Shown here: positions 14,458-30,079 of the stretch, piece after piece
Layout of the letters: every line of letters starts with the position of its first letter
Numbering within the stretch: position 1 is the first letter of the stretch
Assembly: GCA_029212835.1 (NCBI GenBank)
Contig: JARGPE010000013.1
Coordinates: forward strand, 1 to 32,191
Reading direction: 5' to 3'
Length of the DNA: 32,191 nt
Origin: Alphaproteobacteria bacterium
Lineage (GTDB): Bacteria > Pseudomonadota > Alphaproteobacteria > UBA8366 > Aestuariispiraceae
Notes under the pieces: generated by a model
Databases searched by the model: none
Told to the model about the DNA's origin: nothing
The model's input: only the letters and a program-made list of their open reading frames with translations
Translations under genes and position numbers: made by a program

Positions 14458-15939
14458 TTAGCGCATCACAAAAGGATTGGACATGGGCGCGTCGGAGACG
14501 TTGATCCAGGTTGTACGCGTACGGGTATAGTCCAGGATGGACTCCATGCCGGCCTCTCGTCCATAACCGGATTGATTGAAGCCGCCAAAGGGCGCGATTG
14601 GGGATATGGCGCGGTAGGTGTTGACCCAGCAGATCCCGGCACGCAGGCGCGATGAGACCCGGTGTGCGCGTGCTAGGGATTGGGTAAAAATGCCAGACCC
14701 CAAACCATAATCGCTGTCATTGGCCAGAGCGATAGCCTCTTCTTCGGTATCGAAGGGGATCAGGGTCATGACGGGTCCAAACATTTCGACCGTCAAGGTT
14801 TCCAGGTCGGGCTGGTCATGGGTCACCAGGGTGGGCATGAAATAGTTGCCGTCTGTCCCCTCCTTGCGCACGCCCCCAAATCGAATTTTCCCTCCCTGAT
14901 CAATGACCTTTTGCAGGGTCTCCTCGATCCGGGAGATCTGGGTCATGCTGCATAATGGGCCGATATGCGTCTTGGGGTCTTGTGGGTCGCCCACGATCAG
15001 GTCCTTGCATTTCTCCTGTACCAGAGTAGCGACCTTTTCATAGAATGAGCGGTGGACGTAGCCCCGAGATCCGGCAACACAGGATTGTCCCGATGCGCCA
15101 AAATTGCCGGCGATCAATCCATTGGCGGCACTGTCCGGGTCGGCATCCTCGAAGACAAGAATCGGCGACTTCCCGCCCAGCTCCAGGGTTGTGACGGCAA
15201 AATTCTCAGCTGAATTGCGCACGACATGGCGCGCAGTTTCCGGGCCGCCAGTAAAGGCGATGCGATCTACTTTTGGATGCCGGGTCAGGGGGATAGCACA
15301 TCCGTCCGCATCCCCGGTTACGACAGAAACGACTCCCGCCGGAAAGCCCGCCTGTTCGATCAATTTGGCAAAATGCAACATAGGGGCGGGGGCGATTTCT
15401 GAGGCCTTCAGCACGACGGCACATCCTGCCGCCAGGGCCGGTCCCAGCTTTGTCGCGGTCAGGAACATTTGCGCATTCCAGGGAACGATGGCCGCCACCA
15501 CACCGATAGGCGCACGCTGTGTATAAACATGCATGTCTGGCTTATCGATGGGTAGAACCGCCCCTTCGATCTTGTCGGCCAAGCCTGCGAAATAGCGATA
15601 GTAATCGGCGACATAGCGGGTTTGCCCGACAGTTTCCGTCGCCAGCTTCCCGCTGTCTGTAGTTTCTAATCGGCCCAGTTCTTCCGCATTCTCTTCAATC
15701 AAGGCCGCGAGACGGTACAGCAGCTTCCCCCGCTGTGTTTGCGTCATATCGCGCCAGACAGGGTCATTCAGAACCCGGAGAGCCGCAGCGATGGCACGGT
15801 CGATATCTTGCGGGGCAGCACAGGCAAAAGTCGCCCAGACCTGCCCGGTGGCGGGGTTGCGACTTTCCATCACCTGTCCCGTCGCGCCGTCGCACCAGGT
15901 GCCGTCGATGAACAATTGAAAATGGGGGAGGTTGGTCAT
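14458..15939 (-). CDS. NAD(P)-dependent aldehyde dehydrogenase (TgnC-like candidate)
   Basis: A 493-residue aldehyde dehydrogenase with all key residues: N155 (PWNAQ), E253 in TLELGGKSP and the nucleophile C287 in GASGQSCVAGSR. The FGGFNQSGYGRE motif is near the C-terminus. It is the last gene of the five-gene operon, 10 bp after the monooxygenase, with AAAGGAG upstream of its ATG. In the trigonelline pathway of Acinetobacter, TgnC oxidises the ring-opened hydroxybutyrolactone to the (N-methylformamido)methylene succinate; a second dehydrogenase handles succinate semialdehyde. Either step could be the job here, and the operon context makes the TgnC role more likely. Assignment within the broad aldehyde dehydrogenase family is inferred from context. 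Confidence 0.88.
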   Translation of the reverse strand: MTNLPHFQLFIDGTWCDGATGQVMESRNPATGQVWATFACAAPQDIDRAIAAALRVLNDPVWRDMTQTQRGKLLYRLAALIEENAEELGRLETTDSGKLATETVGQTRYVADYYRYFAGLADKIEGAVLPIDKPDMHVYTQRAPIGVVAAIVPWNAQMFLTATKLGPALAAGCAVVLKASEIAPAPMLHFAKLIEQAGFPAGVVSVVTGDADGCAIPLTRHPKVDRIAFTGGPETARHVVRNSAENFAVTTLELGGKSPILVFEDADPDSAANGLIAGNFGASGQSCVAGSRGYVHRSFYEKVATLVQEKCKDLIVGDPQDPKTHIGPLCSMTQISRIEETLQKVIDQGGKIRFGGVRKEGTDGNYFMPTLVTHDQPDLETLTVEMFGPVMTLIPFDTEEEAIALANDSDYGLGSGIFTQSLARAHRVSSRLRAGICWVNTYRAISPIAPFGGFNQSGYGREAGMESILDYTRTRTTWINVSDAPMSNPFVMR

Positions 15940-15949
15940 GGTGGCTCCT

Positions 15950-16984
15950 TTAGCTGAAGGCAGGCATCACGTCATCGATGAAGCGGGACAGGGAAGCGCG
16001 TTTCCGCTCCGCCGTCATGCCACTGTCGATCCAGAATGAAAATTCATCATAGCCCAGATCCTCAATGCGTTTCAGGCGGTCAATCACCTCCTGAGCCGTC
16101 CCCATGGTCAGGTCGCGGCGCATGTTTTCTGGGGCCATCATGGCATTGCCTGCAATTTCAGACTCTTCCAGTGTTTGGATCAAGCCTTGAGAGACAGGAC
16201 GCTTGTTCTGAAACCAGGCACCGAAGTAACAATAGAAGCGACTGAAAATGTTGGCAGCTTCTTGGGCATCGTCCTCGTCGGCCGCAACATAGGTATGGTG
16301 CAGCAGCATGACTTTGGGTCTGGGGCCGGTATGGCTGGCGCAGGCCGCATTGAACCGCTGCATCAGGCTTTCGATTTCGTCTGATCCCTGCCACAGCGGC
16401 GTCACTTGCACATTAAAGCCATTATGCACGGCGAATTCATGGCTGTTGGGATCACGGGCGGCAACCCAGATGGGTGGGCCATTGGCTTGTTTGGGTTTTG
16501 GAGAGGCCGTCGTGCTGGGGAATTGAAAGAATTCCCCCTCATGGGCGCAATCCCCCGCCCAGAGTTTCGGCAACAGAGGTGCGATTTCCCGCAACCGCTG
16601 GCCCGCCTGCCAAGCGTCCAGGCCGGGATGCAGGCGTTCATATTCATAACTATAGGCACCGCGCGCAATCCCCAGCTCCAGCCGCCCCCCGGTGACCAGA
16701 TCGGTCATTGCGGCTTCTCCCGCCAGTTTGATCGGGTGCCAGAAGGGGGCAACCACTGTGCCGGTTCCCAGGCGCAGGTTCTTTGTATGACGCGCGACAT
16801 CGGTCAGGGTGATGAAGGGGTTGGGCGCGATGGTGAACTCCATCCCGTGATGCTCCCCGGTCCAGACCGCGCGCATTCCGCCCTCGTCGGCCATCTGACA
16901 CAGATCCAGGAATTCCTGATACAGAACATCATGGGGTTGGTCCGCGTTCAGCCGTTCCATATGGGCAAATAGTGAAAATTCCAT
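15950..16984 (-). CDS. tgnB: Luciferase-like FMNH2-dependent monooxygenase, probable trigonelline oxygenase component
   Basis: A 344-residue TIM-barrel enzyme of the bacterial luciferase-like family, which uses reduced FMN supplied by a partner and O2. Visible family landmarks are the N-terminal strand MEFSLFAHMER, WTGEHHGMEFT (about 41-51), LRLGTGTVVAPFWHP and GRLELGIARGAY. The C-terminal EFSFWIDSGM also matches, from memory, the TgnB oxygenase that cleaves the C5-C6 bond of N-methylnicotinate. The flavin reductase gene lies 2 bp upstream in the same operon, which is the expected two-component pairing. The start has GAGGAAG upstream. The enzyme class is certain; substrate identity as trigonelline rests on remembered similarity and gene neighbours. 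Confidence 0.85.
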   Translation of the reverse strand: MEFSLFAHMERLNADQPHDVLYQEFLDLCQMADEGGMRAVWTGEHHGMEFTIAPNPFITLTDVARHTKNLRLGTGTVVAPFWHPIKLAGEAAMTDLVTGGRLELGIARGAYSYEYERLHPGLDAWQAGQRLREIAPLLPKLWAGDCAHEGEFFQFPSTTASPKPKQANGPPIWVAARDPNSHEFAVHNGFNVQVTPLWQGSDEIESLMQRFNAACASHTGPRPKVMLLHHTYVAADEDDAQEAANIFSRFYCYFGAWFQNKRPVSQGLIQTLEESEIAGNAMMAPENMRRDLTMGTAQEVIDRLKRIEDLGYDEFSFWIDSGMTAERKRASLSRFIDDVMPAFS

Positions 16985-16986
16985 AC

Positions 16987-17919
16987 TTAACTTCCTCTTT
17001 GGACGGGGTGAACAGGATGCAGGTCGCCGTATTCGTCATCACCGACATACAAACCGAATTGTTGGTTCTGACTTTCCAGAATGTATCGTTCGATGATGGT
17101 TCGCTCCGCCAATGGCCCGGAAAGCGAGTCGGGCACACTTTCCAACGGCATGAAGCGGCCCAGATTCGCTACCTCTAAGGAGGGGGCTAGGGCGCGATAG
17201 AAGGTGTAGCTGCGATCGGCCTTTGTATCGGTATAGATTGAATAGACGGCACCGATTTCGATGCCTGTTCCATCTAGGGCGTGGGTCAGGGTATCCAGGG
17301 CGCTTGTGCGCGCCGGGACCCGAAAATGAGGTAAACGTAGGCCGGTTTCTGTGGGTGTCAGTAGAAGCTGATCTCCATATGAAATAATGCCGCCAACGAA
17401 GCGCTTCTCCATTTCTGTTGCGACACCTGTCTGTGCCTTGTGCTCCAGGCTGCGGCTGAAATATCCACCGCTGGCATAACCCAGGCCCGGCTTGTCATTG
17501 GTGTCGAAATTCAGAACTTCCCCGATCAGAATATCGTGGTCGCCTGCTTCCACACGCTCGTGAACTCGACAGGAGAACTGTGCGGTTGCGCCCTCAATCA
17601 AGGGGCTGCCCCAATCATCCCTTGTCCAGTTCACTTGACCGAACCGATCTTCTGTCCGACCGGCAAACAGGGTGGAGATTGCAGATTGATCATCGGCCAG
17701 AATGTTTACGGCAAATTGGGTGCAGGTATGAAATAGGTCATAACTACTCAAACGTTTTGCGGGACAGACCAGCAACAAGGGTGGGTCCAGAGAGACCGAG
17801 GTGAAGGAATTTGCCGTGAAACCGACAGGAACGGAGTCCGGGCTCATCATGGTCACGACGGTCACACCGGTCATATAACTGCCAAAGGCGTTGCGCAGGG
17901 CGATTGGATCCAGCGTCAT
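16987..17919 (-). CDS. tgnA: Flavin reductase with C-terminal Nudix-like extension (TgnA-like)
   Basis: A 310-residue protein. Residues about 1-160 form a flavin-reductase-like FMN-binding domain: FGSYMTGVTVVT, GFTANSFTSVSLDPP, FAVNILADDQ and the conserved GDHDILIGEV (about 126-135). It would supply reduced FMN, using NAD(P)H, to the oxygenase encoded 2 bp downstream. Residues about 173-275 are an additional domain (FVGGIISYGDQLLLTPTE...RLPHFRVP). Its strand pattern recalls a Nudix fold, but no GX5EX7REUXEEXGU box is seen, so it is probably a non-hydrolytic binding module. GGGAGG lies before the ATG, inside the end of the hydrolase gene. The tgnA label is inferred from the operon set. Confidence 0.82.
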   Translation of the reverse strand: MTLDPIALRNAFGSYMTGVTVVTMMSPDSVPVGFTANSFTSVSLDPPLLLVCPAKRLSSYDLFHTCTQFAVNILADDQSAISTLFAGRTEDRFGQVNWTRDDWGSPLIEGATAQFSCRVHERVEAGDHDILIGEVLNFDTNDKPGLGYASGGYFSRSLEHKAQTGVATEMEKRFVGGIISYGDQLLLTPTETGLRLPHFRVPARTSALDTLTHALDGTGIEIGAVYSIYTDTKADRSYTFYRALAPSLEVANLGRFMPLESVPDSLSGPLAERTIIERYILESQNQQFGLYVGDDEYGDLHPVHPVQRGS

Positions 17920-17920
17920 A

Positions 17921-18742
17921 TCAGACCTCCCCCTCTGCCATCGCGAAAAATTCTGCCAGGATATTGGTGATCATCTTGGCATGGGTCATCGGAGCCATAT
18001 GGGCGGCGTCCTCAATGATATGGGCGCTCCCCTTTGGAATGATCCGGGCCAGAGCTTTTGACATTTCCGGTGTTGAATTGGGATCGCCAGCGGCGGTTAG
18101 GAGCAGCGCTGGACAGGCAATCTTTTCCAATGCCGCATCGTCTGGACCATCCGAATAGGCAAAGGCATTATAGGCTGCCGCATATCCCGGCAGGGATCCA
18201 TTCACTAACCAGTCATAGCAGGCATCATTGGCGGCTTTATTGGCCGGACTTGGTGGATTGCCAAACCAGCGTGTCAGGGTTGGTTGTGGATCAGCATCCC
18301 GACCGGACTGTGCCTGGGTCAATGAATTTGCGCGGGCGCGGACCGCCTGGGCGGAGTCCGGACTGCGGCGATAGATACTGTTCAGCGCCGCGACCGCATG
18401 GATTTTTTCCCGATAGCGTGCCGCGAGGTCCAGGGAAATCAGCGCCCCCAGGGAATGTCCGGCGATAGAGACGGGTCCAGGAATATCCTGCAGGCTGGCT
18501 GCGATCTGATCGGTATAGTCGGTCACTGTCGGGTTAGCCTTGTCGAGCAAGGGGCTGTCGCCATGCCCAGGCAAATCAAGGGCATAGACGTTGTGCCGTG
18601 TAGCAAGCCCCGGCAGAATACCGCCCCAGCTTTCGGCACGCAGGCCAACGCCATGGATCAGGACTACAGCGGGTCCCGATCCACGCTGGTGCCAGGCCAG
18701 GCCGGAGCTACTGTTAGACCGCGGCAGGGTTGTCCAGGTCAT
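17921..18742 (-). CDS. Alpha/beta hydrolase (TgnD-like candidate)
   Basis: A 273-residue alpha/beta-hydrolase-fold enzyme. The oxyanion-hole segment LIHGVGLRAESW is followed by LDLPGHGDS and the nucleophile elbow AGHSLGAL (S97). The acid D220 (LLLTAAGDPN) and the base H248 (IEDAAHMAP) complete the triad. There is no signal peptide, so it is cytoplasmic. It overlaps the DUF1185 gene by 29 bp and is separated from the flavin reductase by 1 bp. In the trigonelline pathway a hydrolase (TgnD) splits (N-methylformamido)methylene succinate into formate, methylamine, CO2 and succinate semialdehyde; this gene is placed to do that. The class is certain, the substrate inferred. Confidence 0.87.
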   Translation of the reverse strand: MTWTTLPRSNSSSGLAWHQRGSGPAVVLIHGVGLRAESWGGILPGLATRHNVYALDLPGHGDSPLLDKANPTVTDYTDQIAASLQDIPGPVSIAGHSLGALISLDLAARYREKIHAVAALNSIYRRSPDSAQAVRARANSLTQAQSGRDADPQPTLTRWFGNPPSPANKAANDACYDWLVNGSLPGYAAAYNAFAYSDGPDDAALEKIACPALLLTAAGDPNSTPEMSKALARIIPKGSAHIIEDAAHMAPMTHAKMITNILAEFFAMAEGEV

Positions 18743-19313
18743 GTCCCAGATCCTTTAGGTCCTGATAGCGATCGCCAATGCGATGATGAGGCCGTCCCCC
18801 ACTGGCACCGCCCAGCACGACGACAATCTCGTCGGCGCGCGGCGCATCGGGGATGGCAAATTGGATGGTCATATAATGGGACCGGCGGCCCGCATCATTC
18901 TTATCCATCAAGGGCACACTGATCGGGGCATTCGCACCGCCCCTGGTATTGGTGAAAGACAAATAGGATTTAGCGGCAACCGCCTCGCGGTAGTGATTGC
19001 CAAAGCGCAATGTGTGGATCAGACCCGATGCATGCTCAATCTCTCCATCTAGGCCGACGACAGCAGCCTTGCCATAAGCTTCAATTGCCTCACCGCCGCC
19101 TGCCATTGCCAGAATACGCTCAGTCAGCATGGCTCCTAAAACCGGTCCATAGGCTTGGATTTCTGGTTTTAGATCTTCGACGAAGCGTCCAGCCCAGGGA
19201 TTGCGTACAACAGCGGCGACTGCGAACAGACGCCAGGGTGTCTCTATCGACTTGAATCCCTCAATCAGCGTTTCTTCTTCAAAGGTCACAATTTTGCGAA
19301 TTTCCGGCTTCAT
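18714..19313 (-). CDS. DUF1185 / AA_synth family protein
   Basis: A 199-residue soluble protein of the PF06684 family (called amino acid synthesis, although no activity is firmly proved). Recognisable stretches are RKIVTFEEETLIEGFK near the N-terminus, VVRNPWAGRFVEDL, GKAAVVGLDGEIEHASGLIHTLRFGNHYR and the C-terminal ADEIVVVLGGASGGRPHHRIGD. The start at 19313 has AAGGA 8 nt upstream; the extension to 19361 is unlike the family. It is the first gene of the operon. The Acinetobacter trigonelline pathway needs a conserved hypothetical protein that assists succinate-semialdehyde oxidation; this protein could be that partner, but I cannot confirm that it is the same family. Confidence 0.82.
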   Translation of the reverse strand: MKPEIRKIVTFEEETLIEGFKSIETPWRLFAVAAVVRNPWAGRFVEDLKPEIQAYGPVLGAMLTERILAMAGGGEAIEAYGKAAVVGLDGEIEHASGLIHTLRFGNHYREAVAAKSYLSFTNTRGGANAPISVPLMDKNDAGRRSHYMTIQFAIPDAPRADEIVVVLGGASGGRPHHRIGDRYQDLKDLGHDLDNPAAV

Positions 19314-19365
19314 CCTATCCATCCTTATATTTGTTAAGGGGGAGTGTCGGACTGGGTGCAAAAAT

Positions 19366-22610: not shown

Positions 22611-24044
22611 ATGCGGATCACGAAGACGCTCTGGGGGTTGATTGCACTGCTCGCTTTTTTGGGGCTGGCTTCCACTGCCTATGCTCATACGTCAGAGCGT
22701 GGTTATATTCTGTTGCTGCCGACAGAATATTATCTTTTGGGTGGTACCTTGTCGGTAGCGCTCTCTTTTATGATCCTGTCATTGTCAGAGCCAAGGGCGG
22801 TGATAGAGGCTTTCCGGGGGGGACTAAACCTACCCTGGATTCCGGCTGGGTTGTTTGACACAGTTTTATCGGCGATTGGCTTTCTGTCATTTGCTGGATT
22901 GTTGTATTGCGGTGTCGAGGGCGCGCGTGATCCACTCACAAATCCGCTGCCGATGGTGATCTGGACCATTGGCTGGATCGGGGTGACGGTTGCCCATGCG
23001 GTATTTGGGAATTTCTGGTCAGTGCTCAATCCCTGGCGGTTTCCTGTGCGGCTGGTGCGTCGTTTGGTGGGGGCATCGGCAGAGGGCGTCGGGCCTGTAT
23101 CCCTGCCTAACTGGGCCAAGGGTTGGCCTGCTATCCTACTGTTTATGGGGATTGCCTGGTATGAGCTGGTTTCCCTCTCGCCAGAAGACCCGGATCTTCT
23201 GGCCTTCTGGGTTTTGATTTTTTGGGGAATTGGTTTCATCGGTTGCCTGCTGTTTGGCGAGGCCGTGTGGCTGCGGGCGGGGGAACCGCTTTCCGTGTTG
23301 TTCCGCTATTTATCCTTGCTCGCCCCAATTTCCGTAAAGACAAATCCAGATGGGAGACGCGTGCTGTGCCTTTCGAAGCCAGGCAGTCGGGTGTTGGATT
23401 CAGAACCGGCAAGCCTGGCGATATCGCTGTTTCTGTTGCTCAGCCTCGCCACAGTCAGTTTTGATGGCTTGAGCATGACCTTCTGGTGGTTGGGGTTGAA
23501 CGACATCAATCCTTTAGAATTTCCAGGGCGCTCTGCGGTGACCGGGATTAATTCTGTTGGGTTACTATTGGCCTGGATTACGCTTGCAGCGCTGTATGGC
23601 GCGTCGGTATGGGGTGGGGAATGGCTGCGCGGTGCACGGGATGCTAAACCGGCCTTAGGGTTGATGGTTTTGTCGATCCTGCCCATCGCACTGGCCTATC
23701 ATATCTCCCATTACCTGACGTATTTTTTGGTCAATGCGCAATGGGTACTGATTGCCCTGAATGATCCCCTGGCAACCGGTGCGAATTTATTGGGTCTTCA
23801 GGGATTCCGCGTTACAGCGTCATTTCTCAATTCGCCCGACTCGGTGGAACGGATTTGGCAAATTCAGGTGGCAGCGATCAGCATTGGCCATATCTGGGCC
23901 GTTATTTTGGCCCATGGCCTCAGCAGTCGATTGAGCGGTGGGCGGCCTGCGCGTCATCTGGTGGGGCAAATTCCACTTGGCTTGCTGATGGTGGCCTATA
24001 CGTTGTTTGGCTTGTGGCTTCTGTCCTCCCCAACGGGTGGATAA
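22611..24044 (+). CDS. Uncharacterised polytopic membrane protein with predicted N-terminal histidine
   Basis: A 477-residue protein with a signal peptide ending AYA (23-25) and then a predicted mature N-terminus HTSERG (H26). About ten or more hydrophobic segments follow. Histidines lie within or beside membrane helices: H129 (VTVAHAVFG), H364 and H367 (AYHISHYLTYF), H427 (SIGHIWAVI) and H435 (ILAHG). NPWRFP (140-145) and WGGEWL are other likely conserved points. The layout recalls a poorly known membrane family that databases sometimes label fenitrothion hydrolase; I cannot confirm this and assign no reaction. GAGGG lies 6 nt before the ATG. The ABC importer begins 132 bp downstream on the same strand, so the two may be linked. 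Confidence 0.75.
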   Translation: MRITKTLWGLIALLAFLGLASTAYAHTSERGYILLLPTEYYLLGGTLSVALSFMILSLSEPRAVIEAFRGGLNLPWIPAGLFDTVLSAIGFLSFAGLLYCGVEGARDPLTNPLPMVIWTIGWIGVTVAHAVFGNFWSVLNPWRFPVRLVRRLVGASAEGVGPVSLPNWAKGWPAILLFMGIAWYELVSLSPEDPDLLAFWVLIFWGIGFIGCLLFGEAVWLRAGEPLSVLFRYLSLLAPISVKTNPDGRRVLCLSKPGSRVLDSEPASLAISLFLLLSLATVSFDGLSMTFWWLGLNDINPLEFPGRSAVTGINSVGLLLAWITLAALYGASVWGGEWLRGARDAKPALGLMVLSILPIALAYHISHYLTYFLVNAQWVLIALNDPLATGANLLGLQGFRVTASFLNSPDSVERIWQIQVAAISIGHIWAVILAHGLSSRLSGGRPARHLVGQIPLGLLMVAYTLFGLWLLSSPTGG

Positions 24045-24176: not shown

Positions 24177-25487
24177 ATGACTGAGCAGAAGACACAGAGC
24201 ACCATAACCAAATTCTTTACCCGTCGGGATACGTTGAAAACGATGGGCGCAGCCGCTGGTTTGGCGGCAGGATCGCAGTTGTTGAGCGGTCGCTACGCCC
24301 AGGCACAAAGCAGTGAGCCGATCAAAATTGGCTTTCAAGCGCACCGTACTGGTATCGGTGCCTCTTATGGTCGCTGGTATGAGCGCACGACAATGGCTGC
24401 TACTCAATTGATCAATGATGCTGGCGGGATTAATGGTCGCCCGGTTGAAATCGTCACGGAAGATGACGGCACAGATCCCAAGCGCGGTGCGGAAGTGGTC
24501 GAAAAATTCGCCATTCAGCATAAAACCGATATCGTCTTTGGCACCTTGTTCAGCCATGTCGTGATCGGGTCTGCCCCGCGTGCAGGCGAATTGAAGATTC
24601 CTTATTTCGTGGTCAGCGAAGGACATCATGTCGCCAGCGGCAAGTTGAACCGTTATGTCCTGCAGCCCGGCATCACCGATGTGAAGAGCCAGGTTCAGTC
24701 CATGGCACCTTGGGTTGGCAGCAATCTGGGTAAAAAGGTTACGATGATCTTCCCAGATTTTGCCTTTGGTCATGATCACCGCGACTATTTCTCTGCCGCC
24801 ATCGCTGCCCAGGGGGGCGAGGTGATTGAGAAAATTGCAATCCCACCAACGGAACAATCCTTCTTCAAATATTTCCCACGCATTCCGAAGGAAACAGAGG
24901 TCCTGTACCACGTCATGGTCGGCCCCGCTGTTTTGACCTTTGTAAAAGAACTGGGTGAATTCTTTGGTAAGGATCGTCCGCAGATCTTTGGCTTTATCGA
25001 TAGTCTTGAAGCGGTTGATCTCGCCAATCCGGGGTTAGAAGCATTGGAAGGCACCTATTTCTGGGAAGGCTTCCCGCGTTATGCCCAGAATGATGGGGCC
25101 AATCCCCATGATGCCTTCTATCGGGAAAAGGTTGGCGTTGATGCCAATGGAGCCAGCCTGAGCGATCCGAAGGATATTTCCACCTATGCCCATATGTTTG
25201 GGTGCTGGGAGACCCTGTATATCATCAAGCAGGGTATGGAAGCGGCAGACTATAAAGGTCCGGCGGATCGCGCGAAATTGATCGAAGCGGTTGAGAGTTT
25301 CACGGATTTCCCAGAAGGTCCGGAACATCCGCAGGGTGCGAAGATATTTAATGGTCAGACCCACCAAGTCTTCGGCATTCAGAATATCAGTCAGGTCACC
25401 GATGGGAAATTGAAGGTGGTACACCGCACCTCCATCGAAGACAGCCTGTATGAGCCGGAAGTCGACTATACGAAGATGGCATTCTAG
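24177..25487 (+). CDS. ABC transporter substrate-binding protein (branched-chain amino acid/amide type, Tat-exported)
   Basis: A 436-residue periplasmic receptor of the Peripla_BP_6 (LivJ/UrtA/FmdD-like) class. The N-terminus carries a twin-arginine signal (TRRDTLKTMG, R16-R17) with a hydrophobic stretch and an AQA cleavage site near 44. The mature start is IKIGFQAHRTGIGASYG, followed by LINDAGGINGRPVEIV, EDDGTDPKRGAE and a hinge-region VGPAVLTFVKE; these are typical of the class. GGAG (24165-24168) lies 8 nt before ATG 24177; a GTG 3 bp earlier is less likely. It is the first gene of a complete five-gene importer. The ligand is not readable from sequence; amides, urea-like compounds, aromatics and amino acids are all possible. 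Confidence 0.9.
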   Translation: MTEQKTQSTITKFFTRRDTLKTMGAAAGLAAGSQLLSGRYAQAQSSEPIKIGFQAHRTGIGASYGRWYERTTMAATQLINDAGGINGRPVEIVTEDDGTDPKRGAEVVEKFAIQHKTDIVFGTLFSHVVIGSAPRAGELKIPYFVVSEGHHVASGKLNRYVLQPGITDVKSQVQSMAPWVGSNLGKKVTMIFPDFAFGHDHRDYFSAAIAAQGGEVIEKIAIPPTEQSFFKYFPRIPKETEVLYHVMVGPAVLTFVKELGEFFGKDRPQIFGFIDSLEAVDLANPGLEALEGTYFWEGFPRYAQNDGANPHDAFYREKVGVDANGASLSDPKDISTYAHMFGCWETLYIIKQGMEAADYKGPADRAKLIEAVESFTDFPEGPEHPQGAKIFNGQTHQVFGIQNISQVTDGKLKVVHRTSIEDSLYEPEVDYTKMAF

Positions 25488-25515
25488 GGCTTGCGCCGCT
25501 TAGATTTATGACTCT

Positions 25516-25546
25516 CCGTCATCCCGGCAAATTGCTGGGATGACGG
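25516..25546. terminator. Intercistronic stem-loop between the receptor and permease genes
   Basis: CCGTCATCCC (25516-25525) and GGGATGACGG (25537-25546) form a perfect 10-bp stem that can extend by four pairs (including one G-T) to a 3-nt loop. It starts 29 bp after the receptor stop. No strong T-run follows (AAACTTTT). It probably acts as a partial terminator or 3'-end stabiliser, giving more receptor than permease; the sequence also resembles dispersed palindromes of proteobacterial genomes. Confidence 0.65.
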
Positions 25547-25570
25547 AAACTTTTGGACGGCAGCATCTGT

Positions 25571-26452
25571 ATGGATTTTGGACCCTATTTGCTTCTTGCC
25601 TCGCTGGAAGGGGCCGTTCAGGCGGCGGTTCTGGCGCTGACGGCTGTGGGCTTGTCGCTGGTGTTTGGTGTCATGCGTGTGGTCAATGTCGCCCATGGGG
25701 AATTCTTCATGTTGGGCGCGGTGTTGGCCTGGTGGATTTCAAACATGCTGACTGGCTCCCCTCTTTTCGGATTTCTTGCAGCGCTGATTTTTGCCCCGTT
25801 GATTGTGGCGGGCTTAGCTGCGGTTGCAGATCGATTGATCTTGAAGCGTTTGAGCTATGACCCTGAGGCGACAATCGTTGCCACCATTGGGTTGCTGTAT
25901 ATCATTCAGCAGGGCGCGCTAACCTTGTTTGGGCCAGATGCGCGTCCGGTTGCTGCTCCTTTCGATTTCCGGGTCAGCTTTCCTTGGTTCGGCTATTCTG
26001 GATATAAGATTTTTGTGATCCTGGCCTGTGTCCTGGTGCTGTTGGGCGTTTGGGCACTGCTGACGCGGACCCGGATTGGGTTGATCATGCGCGCAACCCA
26101 GTTTGATCGCGAAACGGCCCAGGCCTTCGGGATTCCTGTCGCGCGGGTCTATACCGGTGTTTTTGCCTTTGGGGCGATGCTGGCTGCCGTTGCTGCCGTG
26201 CTGATCGTACCAACACAGCAGGCGTATTACCTGATGGGGCTCGACCCGCTGTTGCTGTCCTTTATCGTTGTTATCATCGGTGGGTTAGGCAGCTTGAAGG
26301 GCACTGTTCTGGCCGCGGCGGTGATCGGGTTGAGTGACGGTATTATCACCATCTTCTTTGATCCGACGCTTGCAAAAATCCTCTCCACAATTCTGGTTGC
26401 GATGATCCTGGTATTTCGACCAACCGGCCTGTTTGGGACGGCAACGCGATGA
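25571..26452 (+). CDS. ABC transporter permease, LivH type
   Basis: A 293-residue inner-membrane permease with about eight hydrophobic helices. Class features are ALTAVGLSLVFGVMRVVNVAHGEFFMLGA at residues about 21-49 (the LivH hallmark) and, near the C-terminus, FIVVIIGGLGSLKGTVLAA. RATQFDRETAQAFGI in the middle is the loop contacting the ATPase. The ATG at 25571 matches the family start; a TTG 18 bp upstream is possible but lies near the hairpin. Its stop overlaps the next permease start by 4 bp (ATGA), so the two are translated together. Confidence 0.9.
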   Translation: MDFGPYLLLASLEGAVQAAVLALTAVGLSLVFGVMRVVNVAHGEFFMLGAVLAWWISNMLTGSPLFGFLAALIFAPLIVAGLAAVADRLILKRLSYDPEATIVATIGLLYIIQQGALTLFGPDARPVAAPFDFRVSFPWFGYSGYKIFVILACVLVLLGVWALLTRTRIGLIMRATQFDRETAQAFGIPVARVYTGVFAFGAMLAAVAAVLIVPTQQAYYLMGLDPLLLSFIVVIIGGLGSLKGTVLAAAVIGLSDGIITIFFDPTLAKILSTILVAMILVFRPTGLFGTATR

Positions 26453-27396
26453 AGGGGTTGATCAGCAAATCACTGGGTCTGCATCTGGGGCTGATTGCGC
26501 TGTTGTTGCTGCTGCATTTTATTTTGCCGGACTACCATCATGTCAGTCTGGCGCGGATCATGGTGTTGGCAGTCTATGCGCTGGGGTTCAATTTATTGTT
26601 TGGCTATACGGGCTTGCTCAGTTTGGGTCATGCACTGTTCTTTGCAGCAGGACTCTATGGCGCGGGGCTGTCGATGCAGTTCTTTCAATGGACGGCGGGA
26701 CCCGGATTTGTCTTTGGTCTTTTCTGCGCCATTGCCGTGGCAACACTGATTGGCATGCTGGCGCTGCGTACCGTGGGCGTCTCCTTTATGATCGTGACAA
26801 TGATGTTCGCCCAGGTCGGCTATCTGTTGATCCTGTATTACAATGAATATACCAGAGGGGATGAAGGCTTTGTGATCCTGCGGGAGCTGCGGATGCTGGG
26901 CCCGCTGGATCTGTCGGCAGAAGGGACGCGCTATCTGGTGGCCTTGGCATTGTTGGCCGCTGCAATCCTGATCAAGTTGGCATTGGTGCGGTCGCCCACG
27001 GGGCGCATTTTAGTCGCCATTCGGGAGAATGAGGAACGCACCCGGATGCTCGGCTATGACCCATTCCGTTATAAGCTGATGGCAATGGTGATTTCGGGTG
27101 GCTTTGCGGGGGCGGCAGGGGCGGCCTATGGCATTCTGTTTGGCTATGTCGGGGCCAGTTTCGCCTCCATCCAATATTCAATTCTGCCGCTGCTCTATGT
27201 CTTGATGGGCGGGGCGGGGGTTGTCTTAGGGCCACTGTTGGGCACGATTGCGATGTTTTATCTGATTGATATCGCCAGCGGCCTGACCTCGGCTTATCTC
27301 TTCTTTGTTGGTCTTGCCTTGGTGCTGCTGATCCTGGTCGCGCCAAAGGGCGTGCTAGGGACCATACGCGATCGTTGGGTGCCGTGGCTGCCATGA
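26449..27396 (+). CDS. ABC transporter permease, LivM type
   Basis: A 315-residue second permease of the importer with about nine hydrophobic segments. The LivM signature ALGFNLLFGYTGLLSLGHALFF is at about 45-66. The coupling-helix region ENEERTRMLGYDPFRYKL is at about 192-209, and GGAGVVLGPLLG follows near the C-terminus. It is linked by 4-bp ATGA overlaps to both neighbours, so the stoichiometry of permease and ATPase is set by coupled translation. It would pair with the LivH-type subunit as the membrane channel. Confidence 0.91.
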   Translation: MKGLISKSLGLHLGLIALLLLLHFILPDYHHVSLARIMVLAVYALGFNLLFGYTGLLSLGHALFFAAGLYGAGLSMQFFQWTAGPGFVFGLFCAIAVATLIGMLALRTVGVSFMIVTMMFAQVGYLLILYYNEYTRGDEGFVILRELRMLGPLDLSAEGTRYLVALALLAAAILIKLALVRSPTGRILVAIRENEERTRMLGYDPFRYKLMAMVISGGFAGAAGAAYGILFGYVGASFASIQYSILPLLYVLMGGAGVVLGPLLGTIAMFYLIDIASGLTSAYLFFVGLALVLLILVAPKGVLGTIRDRWVPWLP

Positions 27397-28130
27397 CAAC
27401 ATTGCTGCAAACCCGAAACTTGTCGAAGAATTTTGGCGGCCTGGCGGCGGTTCAATCCGTTGATTTCGATCTGCAACAGGGTGAAATTCGTGCCATCATC
27501 GGACCCAATGGGGCCGGGAAATCAACTCTCGTTGGCCTGATCAGTGGGCGCATTACCCCCAGTGGGGGCAGCATTACATTTGATGGAAAATCAATCACCC
27601 AATTGCCAGCCCATGCCAGGGTCGCGCGGGGGATCGCCTACACATTTCAGATCACAAGCATCTTTGCCAATCTGACTTGCCGGGAGAATATTCTGCTGCC
27701 AGCCCAACGCGCTTCGGTTGCTGCATCCGGCCTGTTCGGGCGTGTGGATGAAGCCGCACTGGAGCATCGTGCCGAACATATTCTGGCGCGTGTGGGGTTG
27801 GGCGATAAGGCTGATACCAAGGCAAAAGAGATGGCCTATGGGCATCAGCGCCTGTTGGAAGTCGGAATGGGATTGGCGCTGGATGCGAAATTGCTGATTC
27901 TGGATGAGCCAACGCAGGGTTTGGCAGATTCTGAAATTGCCAATTTCATCGACCTGATCCGCGCGGTGTCCAAGGATACGACGGTGCTGTTGATTGAGCA
28001 TAACATGACCGTTGTGATGGATCTGGCACAGCGGATCACAGTGATGAATTTTGGCGAAATTCTTGCCGAAGGGACGCCAGAAGAAATCCGCGCTAACTCT
28101 GCCGTTCAATCCGCGTATCTGGGGGGATAG
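27393..28130 (+). CDS. ABC transporter ATP-binding protein, LivG type
   Basis: A 245-residue ATPase subunit. Walker A GPNGAGKST is at about 37-45, the Q-loop lies in YTFQITSIF, and the signature-like segment MAYGHQRLLEVGMGL replaces the classical LSGGQ, as usual in LivG proteins. Walker B LLILDEPTQGL and the switch histidine in LLIEHNM follow. I use ATG 27393, which forms an ATGA overlap with the LivM stop; earlier in-frame starts lie inside that gene. It powers import together with the LivF-type ATPase encoded 3 bp downstream. Confidence 0.92.
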   Translation: MTTLLQTRNLSKNFGGLAAVQSVDFDLQQGEIRAIIGPNGAGKSTLVGLISGRITPSGGSITFDGKSITQLPAHARVARGIAYTFQITSIFANLTCRENILLPAQRASVAASGLFGRVDEAALEHRAEHILARVGLGDKADTKAKEMAYGHQRLLEVGMGLALDAKLLILDEPTQGLADSEIANFIDLIRAVSKDTTVLLIEHNMTVVMDLAQRITVMNFGEILAEGTPEEIRANSAVQSAYLGG

Positions 28131-28133
28131 GCG

Positions 28134-28829
28134 ATGCTGACGGTTACGGATATCGATTGCTTTTATGGCGATGTGCAGGTTTTGCGGCAATTCTCGCTCT
28201 CGGCAGCGTCCGGCGAAATCCTGTGTTTGCTGGGGCGCAATGGGGCGGGCAAGACGACGGCCTTGAAGGCGATTATGGGATTGGTTCCGCCCCGATCCGG
28301 CAGCGTGGTTGTCGATGATGTTGATTTGACCAAATTGCCCGCCCATGCCGCCCCGAAATATGGATTGGGCTATGTGCCTCAGGGTCGACGGTTGTTTTCC
28401 GAACTGACGGTCGCGGAGAATATCGAGATTGGCCTGATGGCTACCGGACAAGGCAAACCCACCCGGGATCGGGTGCTGGACCTGTTCCCGGTGCTGCGGG
28501 AAAGGCTCTCGCAAGTCTCTGGTAAATTGAGCGGCGGCGAACAACAGATGTTGGCTATGGCCCGCGCGCTGTGCACGGAACCTAACGTTCTGTTGATGGA
28601 TGAACCGACAGAGGGTTTGCAGCCCTCCATGATCGCAAAAATCAGGGAGGTCGTGGTGGCCCTGAAGCAGACGGGCGTTGCCGTTGTTCTGGTAGAACAG
28701 CGTGTCGATGCCGTTTTACCTGTCGCTGATCACGTCGCCTTCATCGAAAATGGTATGAACCGGGAAACCGTGCCGGTGCAGCAGCTGCGCGACGACCCAA
28801 GCCTGCTGCACCGCTATGTCGGGATTTGA
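28134..28829 (+). CDS. ABC transporter ATP-binding protein, LivF type
   Basis: A 231-residue second ATPase. Walker A GRNGAGKTT is at about 34-42, the Q-loop is in GYVPQGRRLFSELTV (family hallmark), and a canonical signature LSGGEQQMLAMARAL precedes Walker B VLLMDEPTEGLQP. The switch position is VLVEQ, with Q in place of His, as in many LivF proteins. It is the last gene of the importer operon and converges with DUF1203, 21 bp away. No strong terminator is visible in that gap. Confidence 0.92.
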   Translation: MLTVTDIDCFYGDVQVLRQFSLSAASGEILCLLGRNGAGKTTALKAIMGLVPPRSGSVVVDDVDLTKLPAHAAPKYGLGYVPQGRRLFSELTVAENIEIGLMATGQGKPTRDRVLDLFPVLRERLSQVSGKLSGGEQQMLAMARALCTEPNVLLMDEPTEGLQPSMIAKIREVVVALKQTGVAVVLVEQRVDAVLPVADHVAFIENGMNRETVPVQQLRDDPSLLHRYVGI

Positions 28830-29321: not shown

Positions 29322-29452
29322 GATGTGGCCTTTGAGAAAGGGTTGAGGTTGCCTAAGCTAATGCTTGGGCTTGCGACCCGACACCCGGTTCTTGCGAAGG
29401 ACTGGTGGGATGTGGAAAACTAACGACTGGCTCCAAGGAAAAGAGGTTTCTG

Positions 29453-30079
29453 ATGATCCCGGCGGATACAGCCTTTGTGGCGATTGATGTGCAGAATGAC
29501 TTTTGTCCAGGCGGTGCCTTGGCCGTGGCCCAGGGGGATCAGGTCGTGCCCTTGATCAACCAATTGATGCCTGGGTTTTCGGTAAAGGTTCTGACCCAGG
29601 ACTGGCACCCGGCTGATCATTTTTCCTTTGCCGCCAACAGCGACGGTGCCCAGCCCTTCAGTCTTATCGATGCGCCTTATGGCCCGCAAGTGATGTGGCC
29701 GACCCATTGCGTTCAGGGCAGTGCTGGGGCTGAATTTCATCCTAATCTCAATACAGATTGTGCCGATCTGATCCTCCGAAAGGGCTATCGCGGCCATATT
29801 GATTCCTATTCCGCCTTCTTTGAAAATGACCATGTGACTCCCACCGGTCTGGAAGGATATCTGCGAGAGCGGGGCGTGAAATCCCTGGTCATGGCAGGGC
29901 TAGCGACAGATTTCTGTGTGCGGTTTTCGGCGGTTGATGCAGCAAAGCTGGGGTTTCAGGTGACTGTTCTGGATGACGGGTGCCGCGCGATTGATATGGA
30001 TGGATCGCTGGCGGTGGCGTTGGCCGATATGGCCGATCATGGCGTGACCGTCATTCCCAGCACCCGCTATGCAGCGTAA
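29453..30079 (+). CDS. pncA: Nicotinamidase PncA
   Basis: Hydrolyses nicotinamide to nicotinate in NAD salvage. The 208-residue isochorismatase-fold protein has the full catalytic triad: D12 (AIDVQNDFCPGG), K110 (ILRKGYRG) and the nucleophile C155 (GLATDFCVRFSA). The metal ligands D50, H52 and H56 lie in TQDWHPADHFSFA. WPTHCVQGSAGAEFHP is typical of bacterial nicotinamidases. The start at 29453 has AGAGG 6 nt upstream; the longer frame from 29405 lacks family similarity. A rhodanese gene follows 83 bp later. Confidence 0.95.
   Translation: MIPADTAFVAIDVQNDFCPGGALAVAQGDQVVPLINQLMPGFSVKVLTQDWHPADHFSFAANSDGAQPFSLIDAPYGPQVMWPTHCVQGSAGAEFHPNLNTDCADLILRKGYRGHIDSYSAFFENDHVTPTGLEGYLRERGVKSLVMAGLATDFCVRFSAVDAAKLGFQVTVLDDGCRAIDMDGSLAVALADMADHGVTVIPSTRYAA

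Follow-up and report, generated by a model that had tools for sequence, protein, structure and literature searches.

The window, the whole 32,191-nucleotide stretch of contig JARGPE010000013.1 analysed here, encodes on its forward strand a protein of 477 amino acids, for which smoothed hydropathy predicts a signal peptide and about ten transmembrane (TM) helices. Its leader (residues 1–25) passes from an N-terminal basic stretch through a hydrophobic core to the motif A-Y-A, and the translation of the reading frame places H26 directly behind this motif, as the initial annotation had noticed. The five further histidines pointed out there, H129, H364, H367, H427 and H435, are likewise present in the protein. 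Downstream follow the genes of an ABC importer and a nicotinamidase. The features discussed in the following are:

22611–24044, plus strand: open reading frame of the polytopic membrane protein, 477 amino acids; ATG start, GGAG about 8 nt upstream
22611–22685, plus strand: predicted signal peptide, residues 1–25, MRITKTLWGLIALLAFLGLASTAYA; signal peptidase I-type site A-Y-A
22686–22688, plus strand: codon of H26, residue 1 of the predicted mature protein; conserved in 41/41
23028–23036, plus strand: loop N140-P141-W142, corresponding to the cluster motif C-P-W in the FeS clade
23463–23465, plus strand: D285, TM6, at the end predicted to be periplasmic; D or E in sequences with H26, S or H in those without
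23700–23711, plus strand: H364-x-x-H367, TM8, predicted mid-membrane; H367 invariant, H364 variable outside the Alphaproteobacteria
23739–23765, plus strand: Q377...D385, TM8, at the end predicted to be periplasmic; conserved in clades A and B and in Actinobacteria
23889–23915, plus strand: H427 (invariant) and H435 (near-invariant), TM9
23988–23990, plus strand: M460, TM10; invariant in the Cys-free family
24177–25487, plus strand: substrate-binding protein of a Liv/Urt-type ABC importer, with a twin-arginine leader and many invariant histidines
25553–26452, 26449–27396, 27375–28130 and 28134–28829, plus strand: genes for two permeases and two ATPases belonging to the Liv/Urt-type importer
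29405–30079, plus strand: nicotinamidase/pyrazinamidase (PncA), whose gene recurs near the importers of clade A

By the positive-inside rule, the alternation in Lys/Arg density puts the mature N-terminus and residues 101–116, 191–200, 286–310 and 383–410 on the outside. H26 is thereby predicted at the periplasmic face, about 14 residues ahead of TM1. With this topology H26, D285, Q377 and D385 would share the periplasmic side, H364/H367 and H427 would lie mid-membrane, and H435 and M460 would be placed toward the cytoplasm.

The family is widespread and undescribed. Neither the window protein nor 46 relatives matched a family in Pfam or NCBIfam (best stray E-value 0.008), the window protein found no match in PHROG, and sequence searches of the PDB returned only noise with the single protein as well as with the family profile as query. 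An AlphaFold2 model, computed with the window protein and two 80%-identical relatives as alignment, was discarded at a pLDDT of 33.

Conservation of the N-terminal histidine and the membrane residues

Homologues were gathered from genomes of the same genus, family, order and class, giving a first set of 41 full alphaproteobacterial sequences down to about 30% identity. Plasmid records added members from Rhizobium, Sulfitobacter, Variovorax, Mycobacterium/Rhodococcus and haloarchaea, while scans of viral contigs yielded no further usable relatives. In a tree of 81 sequences each of six groups falls on one side of a branch, with branch values of 100/99 for clade A, 94/90 for clade B and 100/100 for the others. 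The name 'fenitrothion hydrolase' (Fed), considered for the actinobacterial members, found no support: the annotated plasmid matches are labelled 'hypothetical protein', and the literature gave nothing.

Within the alphaproteobacterial set H26, H367, H427 and M460 occur in all 41 sequences, H435 in 40, H364 in 39 and A25 in 38. H26 thus passes the conservation test set by the initial annotation. H129, listed there among the membrane-embedded histidines, appears in only 9 of the 41 and was dropped as a ligand. In a 47-row alignment that covers three phyla, H367, H427 and M460 remain invariant, and H26 and H435 are found in at least 90% of the rows. In practically all alpha- and betaproteobacterial relatives the residue behind the cleavage site is a histidine; a sequence from Fuscovulum carries Cys at position 26 and lacks H435, which is also missing in three further Rhodobacter-like sequences. 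Among Cys-free members His at position 26 is family-wide, with the exception of one haloarchaeal clade (Haloferax, Halorussus and Halobacterium).

Is the N-terminal helix removed or retained as an anchor? Across the 71 distinct rows with H26, the mean identity is 0.29 in leader columns 3–25 and 0.51 in columns 26–60; position −1 is A, G, S or T and position −3 is A, V, I or L in every one of them. A hypervariable leader that ends in conserved −1 and −3 positions is the mark of a cleaved signal peptide, and cleavage before H26 is strongly predicted for Proteobacteria. An anchoring role, which would have undone the original proposal, is also difficult to reconcile with the actinobacterial relatives, in which the helix is absent and the TM core intact. 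These proteins keep A-H-G, with V or I in place of H364. In most of them the reading frame extends no more than about 25 residues upstream of A-H-G, and in none does this stretch show a hydrophobic core. A signal peptide would not fit there, so that H26 would not become N-terminal by cleavage in this group, and a free α-amine is not a universal property of the family. N-terminal exposure of the histidine is, by prediction, a proteobacterial and partly haloarchaeal trait.

For comparison, a crude scan across the same neighbourhoods covered about 250 further putative signal peptides and found His at +1 in about 3%; of the proteins with such a His, about half are themselves metal-linked partners. 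In several members, for example from Variovorax and Haladaptatus, the motif is hidden by a misannotated gene start; the public starts of L089:7878 and L091:7986, respectively, lie too far downstream and cut off the signal peptide together with the conserved histidine.

The initial annotation also raised the question whether H26 meets the membrane histidines. Correlated changes tie it to D285 instead. Rows with H26 hold 107 Asp and 2 Glu at position 285 and no other residue (duplicates counted). S285 occurs in all four haloarchaeal sequences that lack H26, a Haladaptatus copy that keeps a leader ending in ..STA followed by H has D285, and the FeS clade of more distant relatives, which lacks H26, has H285 in 11 of 11 sequences. 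As H26 tracks D285 across the tree, its probable partner is D285 and not the membrane histidines; given the few independent events, this coupling is suggestive rather than proof. Since the haloarchaeal clade without H26 still has H367, H427 and H435, two separable sites are likely.

Kinship with membrane ferredoxins

A profile search across the phylum led, at 23–31% identity and E-values of about 1e-24 to 1e-30, to the FeS clade, whose members (L120–L131) carry the motifs CA(I/V)CPW and FCRYFCPVGR and a 4Fe-4S insert. When the 47-row alignment was compared with this clade using hhalign, the match extended over the full length (397 columns, probability 99.9, E-value 2.7e-37). The FeS clade in turn matches NapH/MauN with E-values of about 1e-11, down to 9e-12, and NosR with 5e-9. 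The direct comparison of the 47-row alignment with NosR was not significant, and homology to NosR is claimed through the FeS clade only.

At the positions of the cysteine motifs the window family has N140-P141-W142 and G224-E225-P226, and it has no 4Fe-4S insert. From these profile comparisons we place it as a Cys-free sister of the NapH/NosR-like membrane ferredoxins, and we assume that the cluster cysteines were lost here rather than gained elsewhere.

What stands in for H26 in the clade that kept its cysteines? Members of the FeS clade have as neighbours exported proteins that are predicted to begin, once mature, with HH or H. Such a partner, or a His-rich N-terminal extension, may take the place of H26. 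Four of the exported proteins (L177:2590–3177, L178:2683–3435, L179:8486–9049 and L184:7506–8180) are encoded directly upstream of the ferredoxin gene, with a predicted mature start in HH or H (for example VYA followed by HHVIGRPAY), and are candidate N-terminal-His metal proteins in their own right. Long N-terminal His-rich repeats (HDHGAP) occur in the NapH-like membrane ferredoxins L120, L126, L128, L130 and L131, some relatives of which adjoin Cus/Czc-type RND pumps.

Neighbouring genes in the window and beside relatives

In clade A, to which the window protein belongs, the gene of the substrate-binding protein lies within 5 kb of the family gene in 33 of 35 neighbourhoods, despite changes in strand and order, and the substrate-binding protein shows 63–97% identity. 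The same 35 neighbourhoods contain pncA (15), pncB (7) and genes of the hydroxynicotinate-reductase type (8); nicAB is among the recurrent genes, and any niacin-type gene, Mo-hydroxylase included, is found in 24. The closest solved relatives of the substrate-binding protein are Liv-type proteins including 4ey3, 4eyg and 4eyk, which we take to bind lignin-derived aromatic acids. Gene neighbours and solved relatives together make niacin or a related aromatic or pyridine acid the most likely substrate and suggest that 24177–28829 encodes an undescribed niacin/pyridine-acid importer. The importer, described at the outset as one of unknown substrate, is thus tied to niacin or aromatic acids rather than to a metal. 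A search of the literature on homarine and on niacin importers found nothing useful.

Six histidines of the substrate-binding protein (H57, H202, H246, H340, H397 and H417) are conserved in 20 of 20 sequences. This number is unusual and could point to a metal or a metal complex as the ligand of the protein, and the importer might carry a metal complex. Elsewhere in the window, the minus strand at 14458–19361 encodes an aldehyde dehydrogenase, a luciferase-like monooxygenase, a flavin reductase, an alpha/beta hydrolase and an AA_synth protein, a set that presumably resembles trigonelline-type pyridine ring-cleavage genes.

No copper gene was among the genes identified near the locus in the window, and the link to copper rests on the neighbours of relatives. 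In at least 15 members of clade B, and in 4 of the 5 from Actinobacteria, the gene immediately upstream encodes a small exported cupredoxin-like protein (motif HLHGY...GRFP...H). Its profile matches CuA domains, two-domain laccases and Cu nitrite reductases with E-values of 4e-5 to 1e-3, the top matches being two designed immunoglobulin-like proteins (7e-6). This HxH...H family, represented by L009:1011–1457, L089:7379–7735 and L093:7465–7902, has no Pfam model above the cut-off and is an operon partner across three bacterial classes.

A SBP56/YncE-like β-propeller also recurs beside relatives, and PCu(A)C is encoded within 7 kb in 6 of the 35 clade A neighbourhoods. The family gene of M. chubuense NBB4 lies between hmoCAB, which encodes a copper monooxygenase (CuMMO), and a soluble monooxygenase. 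Neighbours in M. gallinarum and haloarchaea include heavy-metal P-type ATPases, CDF proteins, a multicopper oxidase and plastocyanin, and Cus/Czc-type RND genes occur near FeS-clade relatives (L176, L182). With copper proteins adjoining its relatives, the window protein is probably a copper-handling membrane protein of a new kind.

Proposed function, alternatives and known systems

Our leading reading, held with slightly less than even confidence, is that of a polytopic inner-membrane protein that binds copper, or possibly another transition metal, and perhaps conducts it. It retains the core of the initial proposal of an undescribed membrane metalloprotein or transporter, which fits the invariant H367, H427 and M460, the almost invariant H435 and the copper genes beside relatives; H129 as a ligand and the meeting of H26 with the membrane histidines are not supported. 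After Sec export, signal peptidase would free H26 at the periplasmic face. There H26 and D285, perhaps with Q377 and D385, would form a capture site that takes over the metal from a periplasmic partner, which in clade B and Actinobacteria may be the cupredoxin-like protein and in some members of clade A may be PCu(A)C. Topology and conservation point to an inward path from H364/H367 and H427 in mid-membrane to H435 and M460 toward the cytoplasm. A fold and topology of the NapH/NosR type in which the cluster cysteines are absent argue for a protein that conducts metal and not electrons, and the sole bacterial replacement of H26, Cys, is another metal ligand and counts for metal binding. In the window clade the membrane protein would act beside the Liv-type importer, probably one for niacin or a related pyridine. 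Against copper stands that this clade is tied to a niacin-type importer and has PCu(A)C in only 6 of 35 neighbourhoods. The actinobacterial members, in which the free amine would be missing, and the haloarchaeal clade without H26 also count against this reading.

The same ancestry can be read as that of a membrane redox protein, descended from NapH/NosR/CcoG ferredoxins, in which H367, H427 and H435 bind haem or copper and move electrons or reduce periplasmic Cu(II), with H26 as a periplasmic ligand of metal or substrate. The full-length homology to a 4Fe-4S clade that itself matches NapH and NosR speaks for it, and the neighbouring cupredoxin and β-propeller could be electron partners. CcoG, too, presumably belongs with the membrane ferredoxins by its cysteine motifs. 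It is reported as a cupric reductase in a passage of PMC8267372, citing Marckmann 2019. We nevertheless consider a redox role rather improbable: the window family has no cluster cysteine and no 4Fe-4S insert, the absence of H427 and H435 from the FeS clade means that the site is not common to both, and His spacings of 3 and 8 are unlike those of bis-His haem b helices.

The gene neighbourhoods raise another question, namely whether H26 and the membrane histidines bind an organic substrate or a proton instead of a metal, in a protein that would assist the ABC importer or would itself transport the niacin or other pyridine which that importer handles. The proximity of the substrate-binding gene (33/35) and the niacin-type genes (24/35) would be accounted for, but the importer has two permeases of its own, and clade B, Actinobacteria and haloarchaea have the same residues with copper genes and no such importer, so we judge this unlikely. 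Least probable is a purely structural H26, a cap or hydrogen bond to D285 that closes the N-terminus on the TM bundle without any metal. The coupling of H26 and D285 is compatible with a simple ion pair, and Actinobacteria retain H26 away from the N-terminus; such a role would leave unexplained the invariant membrane His and Met, the exchange of His for Cys, and the genes for N-terminal-His and copper proteins that adjoin the family gene in relatives.

To our knowledge the inward passage of copper across the bacterial inner membrane is poorly understood, with CopD-type proteins among the few candidates. A family that spans Alpha- and Betaproteobacteria, Actinobacteria and haloarchaea offers a directly testable further candidate, marked by a near-invariant, processed N-terminal His, by membrane His and Met, and by copper neighbours including the operon of a copper hydrocarbon monooxygenase. 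The more specific proposal of a new bacterial and archaeal copper transporter is possible, though doubtful. Here the processed N-terminal His would itself be the first ligand for incoming metal, placed at the opening of a polytopic bundle derived from membrane ferredoxins, a His/Met ladder would have replaced the FeS clusters, and lineage-specific donors (cupredoxin-like protein, PCu(A)C or N-terminal-His partner) would deliver the metal. If true, a membrane ferredoxin scaffold was reused as a cluster-free metal protein, in a new polytopic N-terminal-His family outside Pfam and NCBIfam.

How does this compare with known systems? With NapH/MauN (TIGR02163) and NosR (Fer4_5, PF12801) the window family has a membrane core in common through the two-step profile link; it lacks both the two C-x(2,3)-C-P motifs and the 4Fe-4S ferredoxin domain of that type and adds H26, H427, H435 and M460. 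A functional parallel is offered by the CopC/CopD and YcnJ importers, in which an N-terminal His at the outer face feeds a polytopic domain with membrane His, as described for YcnJ (PMC12154828). The window protein matched neither CopD (PF05425) nor CopC, the 46 relatives had no Pfam match either, and an identity as CopD was rejected on the missing PF05425 match. It has no soluble CopC domain, and H26 is only about 14 residues from TM1.

In histidine-brace proteins the removal of a signal peptide exposes His1 (PMC10952591). This exposure, seen in LPMO, CopC, PmoF1 and YcnI, is by prediction common to the window protein, which differs in having no separate soluble domain before TM1, in its predicted second ligand Asp (D285) instead of His, comparable to YcnI, whose mono-His brace has an acidic ligand, and in that the amine of the histidine would be unavailable in Actinobacteria. 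Pfam and PDB searches gave no match of the window protein to PmoB/AmoB. The signal-strapping survey (PMC12537917), whose searched passages do not mention the window family, describes in them the Ang-1/Ang-2 'anglerases' on HupE/UreJ permeases with an exposed N-terminal His. As far as those passages describe them, they too combine an N-terminal His with a polytopic permease; their histidine sits on a separate extracytoplasmic domain, whereas that of the window protein is carried by the TM bundle itself.
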